Shown: positions 24,274 to 41,794 of the stretch, one piece after another
Numbering within the stretch: position 1 is the stretch's first letter
Layout: every line of letters begins with the position of its first letter
Source: an uncultured Microcaldota archaeon
GTDB lineage: Archaea; Micrarchaeota; Micrarchaeia; Micrarchaeales; Micrarchaeaceae
Assembly (NCBI GenBank): GCA_903884115.1
Contig: CAISDH010000033.1
Span: forward strand, 124,001 to 188,000
Direction: 5' to 3'
DNA length: 64,000 bases
Notes under the pieces: model-generated
What the model saw: only the letters and a program-made list of their open reading frames with translations
The model's database searches: none
Told to the model about the DNA's origin: nothing
Made by a program: the position numbers and the translations under genes

Positions 24274-24370
24274 CGGGCCCGGTGGGATTTGAACCCACGG
24301 CCATCAACTTGCCTCTGAAGCCTTTGCTTCTTAGAAGGTTGCCGCTCTGTCCAAGCTGAGCTACGAGCCC
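24274..24370 (-). tRNA. tRNA-Arg(TCT) with a 22-nt intron after position 37
   Basis: Minus strand folds as GGGCTCG TA GCTC AGCTTGGACA GAGC G GCAAC CTTCTA[AGAAGCAAAGGCTTCAGAGGCA]A GTTGA TGGCC GTGGG TTCAAAT CCCAC CGGGCCC G. Acceptor, D and T stems intact; anticodon stem 4 of 5 pairs (G27.A43 mismatch); CCA not encoded. Confidence 0.9.
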
Positions 24371-36741: not shown

Positions 36742-36945
36742 ATGATATCAAAACAGACGATAAAGAGGATGGTGAACAGGAACGGCATTGCGATAAGCGA
36801 CTCCGCCGCAGACGCGCTCGCCCGCATGCTGGAGAAGAAGGCTAAGAAGATAGCTAGCTATGCCGTCAAGAGGGCAAAAGCGAGCGGCAGGAAGTCCGTT
36901 CTTGAAGACGATATCGATACCTACAGGATAAAGTTCGGTGACTGA
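36742..36945 (+). CDS. Archaeal histone
   Basis: ISDSAADALARMLEKKAKKIASYAVKRAKASGRKSVLEDDIDTYRIKF histone fold; start taken at ATG 36742 (GTG 36718 also possible). Confidence 0.88.
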   Translation: MISKQTIKRMVNRNGIAISDSAADALARMLEKKAKKIASYAVKRAKASGRKSVLEDDIDTYRIKFGD

Positions 36946-37485
36946 ACGCCAGAAACTCCATTCATCGCCAGAAGCTCCGGCAAGGTGCTGCTGGAATACG
37001 GCACGCAGGGCAGGAAGACCATCAAGCTGTGGGAGGAAAAGCAGGGCGGCACCCTGGAGACGACGTTCAACCACGAAGGCGCGATACTGGCGCAGCAGCT
37101 CCTCAACAACACAACTACAGAGCACCGCATAAAATCAACTCTTGGCGCAGCATCGGTGCATAGCGCAATGGAGAAAGCGTATGAAGAAGTAAAACTTAAC
37201 AGGCAGTGTCCGCACTGCGGCGAAACCAGTCTTGTAAGATTCGCTGATTCTGTAGTTGCAAGCAAAGACCTTCCCGTGATGCCCCTCTACTCCTGCAGCG
37301 TGTGCAAGAAGCGCAGCTACTACCTTACCGACGAGTATCTTGAGTTCCTGGTGAAGAACAACGCCTCTCTGTTTGAGGGCGCAGAACTGGCAGAGCTTGA
37401 GAAGGACTCGCAGGCATTCATGCACGAGATCAAGGAGTACATAATAAGAATCTTTGCAGCGAAACACATAGAGCGAATCAGGTGA
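36946..37485 (+). CDS. Zinc-ribbon protein; probable ACG start (GTG 36985 is the canonical alternative)
   Basis: CPHCG...CSVCKK zinc ribbon. The frame is open from ACG 36946, directly after the histone TGA, with GGTGA upstream. Confidence 0.65.
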   Translation, partial: TPETPFIARSSGKVLLEYGTQGRKTIKLWEEKQGGTLETTFNHEGAILAQQLLNNTTTEHRIKSTLGAASVHSAMEKAYEEVKLNRQCPHCGETSLVRFADSVVASKDLPVMPLYSCSVCKKRSYYLTDEYLEFLVKNNASLFEGAELAELEKDSQAFMHEIKEYIIRIFAAKHIERIR

Positions 37486-37489
37486 AACG

Positions 37490-37741
37490 ATGGCCATCCT
37501 ATTGTCGGAACTATACGGGAAGCAGATAATAAGCAACGCAGGAAAGAAGATCGGCTATGTCGAGGACATAGTGCTCAATTTCGAAAACGGTGCAGTCTCA
37601 AGCCTGCTCATTACAAAGATGGACGACCTCATGAGAAGCACGAACACGGCAAAGCTTCTTGCGAACAACAGCGTGCTCTACGAACGGGTAAAGAGCGTCT
37701 CAGAGACCATAATCGTCGGCAGCGACTCAGTCAAAAAATAG
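37490..37741 (+). CDS. PRC-barrel domain protein (CdpB-like candidate)
   Basis: 83 aa, LLSELYGKQIISNAGKKIGYVEDIVLNFENGAVSSLLI typical PRC-barrel. Confidence 0.82.
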   Translation: MAILLSELYGKQIISNAGKKIGYVEDIVLNFENGAVSSLLITKMDDLMRSTNTAKLLANNSVLYERVKSVSETIIVGSDSVKK

Positions 37742-37820
37742 GGCATAGCGGCGCTCTTAGGTTTCGGATTCAAATACTCCCTCGCATAAGTGCTAAATAT
37801 CTCTCACCAGAAATGCACTT

Positions 37821-38523
37821 ATGACAGACAAAGAGGAATCTGAGCAACTCTCAATATTTAGTGTTAGTTCTAGAAATGACGAATTTCTGGAAGAGCTATA
37901 TGAGAAAGCGATGAAAGAGCTTATCGATTTTTTTGGACTTAACTGGACAAGAAACCGTCCAAACTTATTCTTGGTCAATGACAGGAAGACCATAGACAAA
38001 CTGCGAAGAGCTAAAACGGAGAACTGGATTGTGGGCTGGTCCAGCAAAGGTGATATTTATGTTCTGGATAAGGACCATCATCGGTAGCAACCATAAATAC
38101 TCTGATGAAGAATACTTCCGCTTGATAAAACACGAATTGGCCCATGTCCTCTCCAGTAACCTTTCCGACGCTAATTCCGAACTTGACCGAAATTCAAGGT
38201 CTTTAGGACCGTGCTGGCTCTGGGAGGGCGTTTCTGTCTATCTTGCCGGGCAGATTTTTGATGAGAATATCAAACTACACAGTTTTCTAGAATATTATGA
38301 TAAGTTCGGCCCTGGCGTGTATGCAGAAGGGGGAATTGCTGTCAAGTACCTTGTTGAAAAGCATGGGAAGGCCAAGCTACTGGCGCTTATCAAATCTATG
38401 AAGGATGTCAAGTCTGAAGACGAGTTCAAAAAGTTATTCAAACGGATTTATGGATTTGAGTTGGAATACCGTAATTTTACAAATACCGATAGTGTCCAGC
38501 AAAAGGAGCGTAAGCCGAAATGA
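37821..38523 (+). pseudogene. Gluzincin-type metallopeptidase split by a frame change
   Basis: First frame ends ...GDIYVLDKDHHR* (38087); the +1 frame continues SNHKYSDEEYFRLIKHELAHVLSS...CWLWEGVSVYLAGQ. HELAH plus WEG are the zinc-binding motifs. Confidence 0.7.
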
Positions 38524-38535
38524 GTGCCGAATTAG

Positions 38536-38667
38536 CTAGTCCGTTGACACTTCCTTGGCTAGGTTTGACCTTTTCTTCACCAGTATCCTGTAGCCGCAGT
38601 ACGTGCACCTGACGAAGTTGTCAAGCTGTTTTATCTGTTTGCCGCAATGGGCGCATACGTAAGCCAT
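38536..38667 (-). CDS. rpoP: DNA-directed RNA polymerase subunit P (Rpb12-like; not in supplied ORF track)
   Basis: Minus-strand translation MAYVCAHCGKQIKQLDNFVRCTYCGYRILVKKRSNLAKEVSTD*; CxxC...RCxYCGYRILxKKR is the RpoP signature; GTGAT SD upstream; follows L37Ae. Confidence 0.93.
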   Translation of the reverse strand: MAYVCAHCGKQIKQLDNFVRCTYCGYRILVKKRSNLAKEVSTD

Positions 38668-38671
38668 TCAA

Positions 38672-38926
38672 TCACTGTTTAGCATCAATTACTGCTTTAT
38701 GCCCCTCTATGAGCCTCTTTGCAGCATCGCCTGCCGGAGTCCTCATCGTGTACGCTCCGCCGGCATACGTGGTGTTGCAGTGCTTGCATCTCCATATGGA
38801 GGTGCCTATCCTGCGCACAGCGGTCTTTCCGCATGCATCGCACTTGTAGAGCGTGCGCTTCTCCTGCATGATCTTGGCTGCACGCTTCCTTATGCTTGTG
38901 CCGTATCTTATGCTTGAATTTGCCGT
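38672..38926 (-). CDS. rpl37ae: Ribosomal protein L37Ae; probable ACG start
   Basis: KCDACGKTAVRRIGTSIWRCKHCNTTYAGGAYTMRTPAG. The in-frame upstream sequence [ACG]ANSSIRYGTSIRKRAAKI matches the conserved L37Ae N-terminus; ATG 38869 would remove it. Confidence 0.88.
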   Translation of the reverse strand, partial: TANSSIRYGTSIRKRAAKIMQEKRTLYKCDACGKTAVRRIGTSIWRCKHCNTTYAGGAYTMRTPAGDAAKRLIEGHKAVIDAKQ

Positions 38927-38930
38927 ACAA

Positions 38931-39722
38931 TCACACTCGTTTCTCTATGAGAGATTTTAGCTCTACATGCTTATTAAATGATATGCCGACGAGCTCCTCT
39001 ATCTCTTTCTGGTAGAAGCTGCCTCTGAGGCCCTTCTGCATCGACCTTATGCTGCTACCGTCGTTAGTCACGGTCAGCCTCGCATCAGAAGCGATCTCCT
39101 CATCAAGCGAGGGGTCAAGCAAGATGCTTCCGCCTATTTTCGCAAACGTCGTGGAGGTGACTATGTTGTCTATCTTGAGCCTGTTCTTCCTGTTCTCGTG
39201 TATCACCTTGCCGTCCTCATAGGTTGGCATAGTGGAGTTGAGCAGCGCGCTCATTGCCGCAATCTCGCACGCGTCGAATAGGTTTCCACCGTAGTTAAGC
39301 ACGTACACGTCTATGTAAACGCCCCATGCCTTCCCCTCCTCTATGAATAGGCTCTTCAGGTCTATGCAGCTGCCTGCGCGTATGCCCCTGTCTGTGACCC
39401 TTGAAAGCTCAATGGCCTCTGGGGTTGGCGGCCCGCTCTCATATTTTGAGTGTGCCAGCGGCAGAAGCTCAGCAGCAACTGTCATGTTGCCCTGGTCTGG
39501 AGTGTCAGTCATTGGCGCCTCAAGCGCTATCTTGACTCCTGCAAGGACCTTTGTGCGGCCCAGCTCCACCTGCGCGGATCCTTCTGCGTTGCCCATCGTG
39601 CCAGGGGTGATGCGCATGTTGCGGAAATCGAACATGCCCCTGCTGTCCTCGCGCATGTTCTTAGCGAGCATGCTCTTTATGTAATTGACTTTTATCATGT
39701 CTATGCTTTCCATTTTCATCAA
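38931..39722 (-). CDS. rrp42: Exosome complex subunit Rrp42
   Basis: RNase PH fold (GSAQVELGRTKVLAGVKIALEAP); downstream of Rrp41. Confidence 0.93.
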   Translation of the reverse strand: MMKMESIDMIKVNYIKSMLAKNMREDSRGMFDFRNMRITPGTMGNAEGSAQVELGRTKVLAGVKIALEAPMTDTPDQGNMTVAAELLPLAHSKYESGPPTPEAIELSRVTDRGIRAGSCIDLKSLFIEEGKAWGVYIDVYVLNYGGNLFDACEIAAMSALLNSTMPTYEDGKVIHENRKNRLKIDNIVTSTTFAKIGGSILLDPSLDEEIASDARLTVTNDGSSIRSMQKGLRGSFYQKEIEELVGISFNKHVELKSLIEKRV

Positions 39723-40456
39723 CTCTCGTATTTCTTTGATATGCTATCGTAATTCTCCTTAAGCGCATCTATCTGCTTCTTGGATATATCCTTGCCTGCG
39801 CTCAGCACCATGCTTATGCCTCTTGACAGCTGCTCCCTGCTAAGCCCGCCGTCCATCTGGAGCAGCAGTATCTCGCCGTCGCGCGGCGCTACAGCTATCG
39901 GCATGTCGCTGTCAGAGTAGTTGTCCTCTATCATGTTGAGGTCAAGGGCAAGCTTGTCGTCTATCCTGCCCACAGACACCGCATAGACAAGATCCCTCAT
40001 CGGTATGCCCGCGCTTGCCATGGCAACAGAGGCGGCAGTTATGCCAGCGGCGCGTGTTCCTCCATCGCCCTGCAGCACCTCTACGAATATGTCTATCTCG
40101 CTGCCTGGGAACTCATTGAGAAATACGACGTTCTCGAACACCTCCTTGATGACTTTTGATATCTCCGTGGATCTTCGTGAAGGGCCGCTTCTCCCGTGTT
40201 CAGAGAGGTTTGAGAACGGCGACATCGCGTACCGGCATTTTATTATCGCCTTGGAAGGGTCCATCATGTGCTTTGGCATCGCCTCCTTCGGTCCGTACAC
40301 TGCGGCAATTATCTTGTTGTTGCCCCATTCCACATACGCGGATCCGCTGGCATTGTCGATCACGCCTGCCTTTATGCTTAAAGGTCTAAGCTCGTCGAAG
40401 TTCCTGCCGTCCAACCTCTTGTTGTTCACTATCAATTCTGGCTTGTTGCTTTTCAT
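39719..40456 (-). CDS. rrp41: Exosome complex subunit Rrp41
   Basis: RLDGRNFDELRPLSIKAGVIDNASGSAYVEWGNNKIIAAVYGPKE; DIFVEVLQGDGGTRAAGITAAS. Confidence 0.95.
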   Translation of the reverse strand: MKSNKPELIVNNKRLDGRNFDELRPLSIKAGVIDNASGSAYVEWGNNKIIAAVYGPKEAMPKHMMDPSKAIIKCRYAMSPFSNLSEHGRSGPSRRSTEISKVIKEVFENVVFLNEFPGSEIDIFVEVLQGDGGTRAAGITAASVAMASAGIPMRDLVYAVSVGRIDDKLALDLNMIEDNYSDSDMPIAVAPRDGEILLLQMDGGLSREQLSRGISMVLSAGKDISKKQIDALKENYDSISKKYES

Positions 40457-41082
40457 ATAGTTCCCTTTTCAATATCATTTCCAATGATGCCTTTCTCTTT
40501 CTCGAGCATCTCTTTGATGCGCATTGTAAGTCCTGGCACGTGCGCCTCCTCGCATACGCGCTCAATCGCCGCGACCGCACGCGCGCTATTCTCCCCGCTG
40601 ATCCATACCAGTCCGTTCATGCCGACCACTATGCGCACGGCAGTGAGGTCTGCTATCTGGTTGATCATCGTGTTGCTCTTTCCTATCAGCCGCGGCACCT
40701 TCGAGGGCTTCACCTTCATCAGTATGCCACCGTGCAGCTCGCTTGACCCTTCCAATATGGCCGTCCTCCTGTTTTCAACATCCCTTATCACTGCGCTTAT
40801 GATGCTGCCCTTTTCCGGAGCAGTCTCGTACTTGCGCAGCACTATAAGGCCGCGCACAAAGGATGACAGGTCAACTATGCAAACGCTGCCCTTGGCTGAA
40901 GCAACCGTGCCCACAACAGAATCGCCAACATTCGCCTTCCACGTTCCTTCCAATGGTACAATCTCGCGTTCATCGTAGATGCCCAGCATCTTCGAGTAGG
41001 TGTTGCCGCCCTGAACGTATGAATTTTCCAGCCTGATGGGCCTTGATGCTATAAGTTCTCCAGGTACTACAATCTTTTTCGT
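40453..41082 (-). CDS. rrp4: Exosome RNA-binding subunit Rrp4; probable ACG start
   Basis: N-terminus [ACG]KKIVVPGELIASRPIRLENSYVQGGNTYSKMLGIYDEREIVPLEG, S1 and KH domains (KVPRLIGKSNTMINQI). ORF track begins at internal ATG 40989. Confidence 0.9.
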   Translation of the reverse strand, partial: TKKIVVPGELIASRPIRLENSYVQGGNTYSKMLGIYDEREIVPLEGTWKANVGDSVVGTVASAKGSVCIVDLSSFVRGLIVLRKYETAPEKGSIISAVIRDVENRRTAILEGSSELHGGILMKVKPSKVPRLIGKSNTMINQIADLTAVRIVVGMNGLVWISGENSARAVAAIERVCEEAHVPGLTMRIKEMLEKEKGIIGNDIEKGTI

Positions 41083-41086
41083 TTAA

Positions 41087-41770
41087 TCACTTCTCTATCT
41101 TTACGTCAGCCTGCCCCTGCGCAGCATTGTTTATGCGCTCCAAGAAATCACTCTGCATGCCTGCAGGGAATTCCAGCGACGCTTGCAGGCTGCCGTCGCC
41201 GAGCCAGCGCTCCGATTTCATGCCAAAACGCTTGAGCGTGCCGTATGCGCGGTTCGCAAAAGCGGCGGGCACTGTGACGGTCATCCTTATTGTTGTAAAC
41301 TTTATCGGCATTATGACGCTTAGCTTCTTGACGACATCATCGACCTGCTCGCTCGCGTTCTTGAACGGGTCTATGTTGACCTTGGCCTCTTTCATTGCGT
41401 TCTCTATTCGCATCGGCGGGTTGGGTGCGTTCGTCCTCGGGTCTATGGAATTCGTCGCTATGATGTCTATTATCTGCTTGCGCTTCTCCTCTGTCCGCAG
41501 GTTTCGCTGCTCTGCGGTCATCGGAACGTCGCCCTCCTTCAGTATGGCGTCAACAACCTTGTCGATGTCGTTTGTGCCGAACACCTTCTTTATCTTCTCG
41601 CTGTTCTGCCTCTCGTTCTTTCTTGCGTCCTTGAACACTTCCTCTGTCTGCAGGACGCTGAGCGGGTCGGTGCGCTTGCCTGTCACGTATTCGTATGCCA
41701 TGTCTGCATCGACAAGGATCTCGAACTCTTCACCGCCTTTACGCAGTTTAACGGTCACTATTTTCTGCAT
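41087..41770 (-). CDS. sdo1: SBDS/SDO1-family ribosome maturation protein
   Basis: [47 protein letters not shown]. Confidence 0.94.
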
Positions 41771-41794
41771 CAATACCACAAAGAATAGAAGAGT

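Follow-up and report, generated by a model that had tools for sequence, protein, structure and literature searches.

In bacteria, a native near-cognate start is known in the AUU of infC in Escherichia coli, and Hecht et al. reportedly measured, in 2017, initiation on all 64 codons in the same species (as cited in PMC11497404). For archaea, a review of initiation lists only AUG, GUG, and UUG as starts (PMC7531240), and no description of ACG as a native archaeal start was found in the literature searched, which is weak evidence of novelty. ACG codons at starts that are edited to AUG are known in chloroplasts (PMC9845219). Here we analyzed a 64,000-nucleotide (nt) stretch of archaeal DNA (hereafter, the window; G000:C33:124001-188000), in which the genes for a zinc-ribbon protein, the ribosomal protein eL43 (L37Ae), and the exosome subunit Rrp4 have an ACG at the expected start, each preceded by a GTGA Shine-Dalgarno (SD) core. 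The genome is 1.02 Mb in size, consists of 57 contigs, is about 92% complete, and is apparently a metagenome-assembled genome. The part of it that was read as stretches amounts to 703 kb (~68%), together with 357 to 400 kb from each of four relatives, and the open frames of the genome and the four relatives were compared all against all.

ACG codons at the starts of three conserved genes

The gap between GTGA and ACG is exactly 4 nt at the zinc-ribbon, eL43, and Rrp4 sites (Table 1). No in-frame ATG, GTG, or TTG is found upstream of any of the three ACGs, those of Rrp4 and the zinc-ribbon gene each being the first codon after a stop, and the next canonical codon downstream is 31 (Rrp4), 19 (eL43), and 13 (zinc-ribbon protein) codons away. 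The initial annotation had claimed that three genes within about 4 kb share a GTGA-ACG start context, and the sites were confirmed in the sequence, all at the starts of conserved genes. The canonical starts that had been quoted for comparison, i.e., those of RpoP (GTGATTGAATG), aIF5A (GTGATTGCAATG), and eS31/S27ae (GTGATTTGAATG), were confirmed as well.

Comparison with 29 relatives located the starts of two of the genes. The column of the eL43 ACG holds a canonical codon in all 29 (ATG in 25, TTG in 3, and GTG in 1), and that of the Rrp4 ACG holds ATG in 26, TTG in 1, and ATA in 2. Of the two relatives with ATA, L008 has an ATG one codon further in, and L016 lacks a nearby ATG. The N-terminal Pfam match of Rrp4 spans residues 3-45, and a start at residue 32, the first canonical codon, would therefore lose most of it. 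The zinc-ribbon protein was detected in 40 of the 41 genomes searched and had no match in Pfam or NCBIfam. It has few conserved residues at the very N-terminus, which is variable among the relatives, so the start column is uninformative and the start is fixed by synteny instead. The gene starts directly after the stop codon of a histone gene in G005, G006, and G013 (with ATG, GTG, and TTG), and G024 has ATC at this position.

The window contains three matches to the motif GTGAYNNNACG, compared with 2.85 +/- 1.88 in shuffled sequences. This count is not above chance and therefore proves nothing, and it was dropped as evidence; only the placement is informative. Every match in the window (3/3) is the start of a conserved gene. 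Given 71 homologous gene 5' ends and 128,000 strand positions, the probability of such a placement of three sites at random is ~1.7e-10, a post hoc figure.

Recurrence of ACG and other non-canonical starts in the genome

Two other scans were set aside. When an SD plus a codon was sought with no use of homology, ACG was merely 1.6-fold enriched and hidden among chance matches, and a scan for strong SDs over all positions was drowned in internal sites. The start survey reported here kept only conserved frames that had GTGA at a distance of 4-5 nt and lacked a canonical codon both upstream and among the six codons that follow, with eleven permuted motifs in place of GTGA as the control.

A total of 77 GTGA-led matches were obtained from the 703 kb, including ATG (n = 44), TTG (n = 8), ACG (n = 5), GTG (n = 4), and CTG (n = 3). 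No other non-canonical codon was as frequent as ACG at SD-placed starts. The eleven permuted motifs had 214 matches, including four with ACG, one of which is rrp4 itself, counted via AGTG. Among the non-canonical codons, ACG made up 5/21 after GTGA versus 3/146 after the permuted motifs (p = 0.0009, with small numbers), and CTG made up 3/21 versus 2/146 (p = 0.015; one of these CTGs is apparently fortuitous).

Beyond the three genes in the window, GTGA-N4-ACG starts without a canonical alternative were found in the genes for an ABC-transporter ATPase and a DUF357 protein. In the DUF357 gene, conserved residues precede the first canonical codon, but there is no conservation of the exact start column. 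The 4-nt spacing is shared by all five clear ACG sites. Possible additional ACG starts, with canonical alternatives nearby, are those of a peptidase-like gene, a ParA-like ATPase, and a nucleotidyltransferase.

ACG is not the only non-canonical codon at such positions. With 4-nt spacing, at the homologous start or beside it, we found ATC in uS4, CTG in aRF1 and in a coiled-coil protein, and ATT in a PmbA/TldD gene (gene names in this paragraph that lack a Pfam match come from a reading of the sequence). GCG was found in the same setting in a glycosyltransferase and in SerRS, the latter with an ATG three codons on, and GCG showed no excess over the permuted-motif control. Several other seeming non-canonical starts were discarded, as they were chance SDs beside a real ATG, out of frame, or matches antisense to ribosomal RNA (rRNA). 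The relatives have ATA in uL29 (G008 and G009), in a pyruvate-kinase-like gene (G019), and in Rrp4 (G004), CTG in a MetRS-like gene (G003), and one possible ACG (G008).

The initial annotation had suggested a real start-codon expansion that may recur genome-wide. The expansion itself is upheld by homology-defined ACG starts with the correct SD spacing, by their recurrence, and by the excess of ACG over the permuted-motif control, although it is not exclusive to ACG. The genome-wide part has to be scaled down: ACG does recur outside the window, in the ABC-transporter ATPase and DUF357 genes, but it accounts for merely 5 of the 77 GTGA-led matches.

SD pairing, initiator tRNA, and aIF1

The 3' end of the 16S rRNA reads GATAGATCACCTCA, with AUCACCUCA as the anti-SD, in which AUCAC pairs with GTGAT. 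Being complementary to the 16S 3' end, GTGAT is therefore a true SD. The SD spacing of 4 nt is the commonest in this genome (82/113).

The initiator transfer RNA (tRNA; C33:31150-31224) has the anticodon CAU, an A1-U72 pair, and three G-C pairs (GGG/CCC), all of which are normal. An unusual initiator tRNA, as had been suggested, was not found in the tRNA set, which is incomplete. Nor was an altered initiator anticodon found, CAU being that of the only initiator-type tRNA detected, and loss of aIF1 was rejected as a cause because the gene is present (G000:C33:76273-76479).

Some other features of these components were recorded. Loop 1 of aIF1 reads KAKFDK in this genome. Within the same family, two members have KAKFNK and another has KAKYNK, and KKKFRK prevails in the sister family; as something that might bear on start choice, this difference between the two families is only a lead. 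The T-loop of the initiator tRNA (L102) is TCCAAAT, with C at position 55, and that of two relatives (L060 and L181) is TTCAAAT. A second tRNA (C51:5169-5256, L111) also reads TCC in its T-loop. A T-arm-like tRNA remnant (GTTACACGACGTAGAATTAGGGTTC...) is located just downstream of the tRNAs in L092 and L111, and the L111 remnant shares the TTC-to-TCC change with its tRNA.

Possible coupling to the upstream gene

The distance from the upstream stop codon to the start is 4 nt for both rrp4 and eL43, and 0 nt for the zinc-ribbon gene, where the stop adjoins the start. In 5 of the 14 listed non-canonical starts (rrp4, eL43, uS4, PmbA/TldD, and the glycosyltransferase), the TGA of the GTGA motif doubles as the stop codon of the upstream gene. 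The same layout was observed at 28/95 GTGA-led canonical starts of the genome and is thus common anyway. Coupling was rejected as a full explanation, with 5/14 and no significance. Across the five genomes, the stop lies within GTGA at 16/46 TTG starts versus 47/248 ATG starts (p = 0.03, nominal only).

Proposed direct initiation at ACG and alternative explanations

On sequence grounds, we propose with a probability of about 0.72 that the zinc-ribbon, eL43, and Rrp4 genes are translated directly from ACG by SD-anchored ribosomes that use the ordinary initiator tRNA. The 30S subunit would be positioned through base pairing between GTGA(T) and the 3' end of the 16S rRNA, which would bring the codon exactly 4 nt past the motif into the P site. 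The ordinary initiator Met-tRNA (CAU) would be accepted on ACG even though the middle bases form a C:A mismatch, the product would have a normal N-terminal Met, and coupling to the upstream gene may have a role. ACG would then be the commonest of several tolerated near-cognates (ACG, CTG, ATC, ATT, and perhaps GCG), with others (ATA and CTG) tolerated in the family.

Several observations weigh against this proposal. All three sites come from a single assembly that is fragmented (57 contigs) and apparently a metagenome-assembled genome, and base errors at single sites are therefore possible. Of the clear ACG starts, three out of five fall within 4 kb, a clustering that neither chance nor the proposed model accounts for. 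ACG is more frequent in this genome than in the relatives (5/77 versus 1/131, p = 0.03), a modest difference based on small numbers, and the difference for all near-cognates taken together is not significant (9/77 versus 8/131, p = 0.19). The trend toward coupling in the non-canonical set is also not significant (p = 0.13 to 0.5), and the ACG starts of the ABC-transporter ATPase and DUF357 genes are not coupled.

The fragmentation of the assembly and the clustering of the three cases in 4 kb would also be consistent with assembly or sequencing errors, with T read as C, or with strain variants at the three start codons. We consider this unlikely, as it needs three independent errors that all hit start codons of one region, where the open frames are otherwise intact and conserved. 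Moreover, other contigs have similar starts, as do independent genomes with different codons, and no general excess of positions restorable by C>T was found.

Translation could instead begin elsewhere, that is, at a downstream canonical codon (those at +31, +19, and +13 being available), at another near-cognate (e.g., the ATT at codon 4 of rrp4), or by uninterrupted translation from the upstream gene. A later start is conceivable for the zinc-ribbon gene in particular, because its N-terminus is poorly conserved. For Rrp4 and eL43, however, conserved residues would be lost, and the SD sits 4 nt before the ACG, with the starts of the relatives falling in the ACG column, which makes a start elsewhere rather improbable.

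Editing of C to U in the mRNA, by which ACG would be converted to AUG ahead of translation, as happens in plant chloroplasts, fits the fact that all three sites are an ATG with C for T. The initiator and one other tRNA also carry C where T55 is usual, a further site with C in place of an expected U. Nonetheless, at positions invariant in at least two relatives, 114 residues were restorable by C>T on the sense strand versus 458 by G>A, similar to 282 versus 1078 in the relatives (p = 0.71), a comparison that addresses general editing and is blind to editing that affects start codons only. A search of the genome, which is ~92% complete, detected no PF00383 deaminase (this was the one deaminase family covered), and C-to-U changes cannot generate AUG from the CTG, ATC, ATT, or GCG at parallel sites. 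The C-to-U editing system that the initial annotation had offered as an alternative is thus very unlikely, given no C>T excess, no PF00383 deaminase, and CTG, ATC, and ATT left unexplained.

A dedicated initiator, i.e., a second tRNA with a CGU anticodon or a modified middle base, would account for ACG exceeding the other near-cognates here, but is highly improbable given that the sole tRNA-Thr(CGT) looks like an ordinary elongator, that the one initiator-type tRNA found in the incomplete, intron-rich tRNA set is CAU, and that CTG, ATC, and ATT would be left unexplained, although a base modification would leave no trace in the DNA.

If direct initiation at ACG is correct, native ACG starts would occur at core archaeal genes of the exosome and the ribosome, and gene callers limited to ATG, GTG, and TTG would truncate or overlook conserved genes in genomes of this kind. 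Direct initiation would also provide a natural case in which SD placement may outweigh codon identity, and comparisons across close families could then test what governs the fidelity of archaeal start codons (aIF1, initiator tRNA, and SD strength). More tentatively, the choice of start may be generally relaxed in this lineage, with a GTGA 4 nt upstream, often from the upstream stop codon, largely defining the start, and with ACG, CTG, ATA, ATC, ATT, or even GCG as the codon, ACG having become established in this species.

Gene neighborhood and other RNA genes

The three genes and their neighbors are listed in Table 1.

Table 1 Positions in the window of the ACG start sites, the corresponding genes, and adjacent genes.
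Feature	Position	Strand	Sequence, evidence, or remark
Zinc-ribbon SD and start	36938-36948	+	GTGACTGAACG
Zinc-ribbon gene GTGA SD core, within 3' end of histone gene	36938..36941	+	Pairing with 16S 3' end
Zinc-ribbon ACG start, directly after histone stop TGA	36946..36948	+	Synteny with G005, G006, G013
Zinc-ribbon protein (CPHC...CSVC), 179 codons	36946..37485	+	
Archaeal histone, upstream of zinc-ribbon gene	36742..36945	+	NF043032, E = 2e-11, 44 bits, below cut-off of 50
eL43/L37Ae SD and start	38934-38924	-	GTGATTGTACG
eL43 GTGA SD core; its TGA is the rrp42 stop codon	38931..38934	-	
eL43 ACG start	38924..38926	-	Start column in 29 relatives
Ribosomal protein eL43 (L37Ae)	38672..38926	-	PF01780, E = 4.6e-24
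Exosome subunit Rrp42 (open frame), upstream of eL43	38931..39743	-	NF003282 best match, slightly below cut-off
RpoP-like zinc-ribbon protein, canonical start, comparison gene	38536..38667	-	GTGATTGAATG; name from the initial annotation
Rrp4 SD and start	41090-41080	-	GTGATTAAACG
rrp4 GTGA SD core; its TGA is the SBDS stop codon	41087..41090	-	
rrp4 ACG start, directly after in-frame TAA	41080..41082	-	Start column in 29 relatives
Exosome subunit Rrp4	40453..41082	-	PF22625, PF15985; NF003181 below cut-off
SBDS ribosome assembly factor, upstream of rrp4	41087..41794	-	TIGR00291, E = 1.2e-67
Exosome subunit Rrp41, ATG start	39719..40468	-	TIGR02065 best match, slightly below cut-off

The 16S rRNA match (C33:205962-207960) is 1999 nt long versus a model of 1478 positions, which suggests that the gene carries an insertion or intron of ~500 nt. 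A tRNA on the minus strand of the window (24274-24370), probably Arg(TCT) with an intron, was identified by the Rfam model and missed by ARAGORN, and several other tRNAs of the genome look intron-bearing.

Comparison with known initiation systems

The resemblance to start editing in chloroplasts lies in the DNA, which has ACG at a homologous ATG start. The difference is that no sign of editing was detected here and that other non-ATG codons are found at the same kind of site. With canonical SD-led initiation in archaea, the ACG genes share the pairing of GTGAT with the 16S rRNA, aIF1, and a normal initiator tRNA, whereas their start codons are outside AUG, GUG, and UUG (PMC7531240). Compared with termination-reinitiation in coupled archaeal and bacterial genes, where the common overlaps are ATGA or TGATG (PMC6728339, PMC12548453), the putative coupling here involves a stop that precedes a non-canonical start by 4 nt, or by 0 nt in the zinc-ribbon gene.

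Judged from the sequences, the ACG starts are most likely a variant of the known SD-directed near-cognate initiation. As in the prokaryotic cases, the codon is placed by an SD, is one base from AUG, and would be read by the ordinary initiator tRNA, whereas here ACG is found at conserved native housekeeping genes of an archaeon, with several of them in one operon region.

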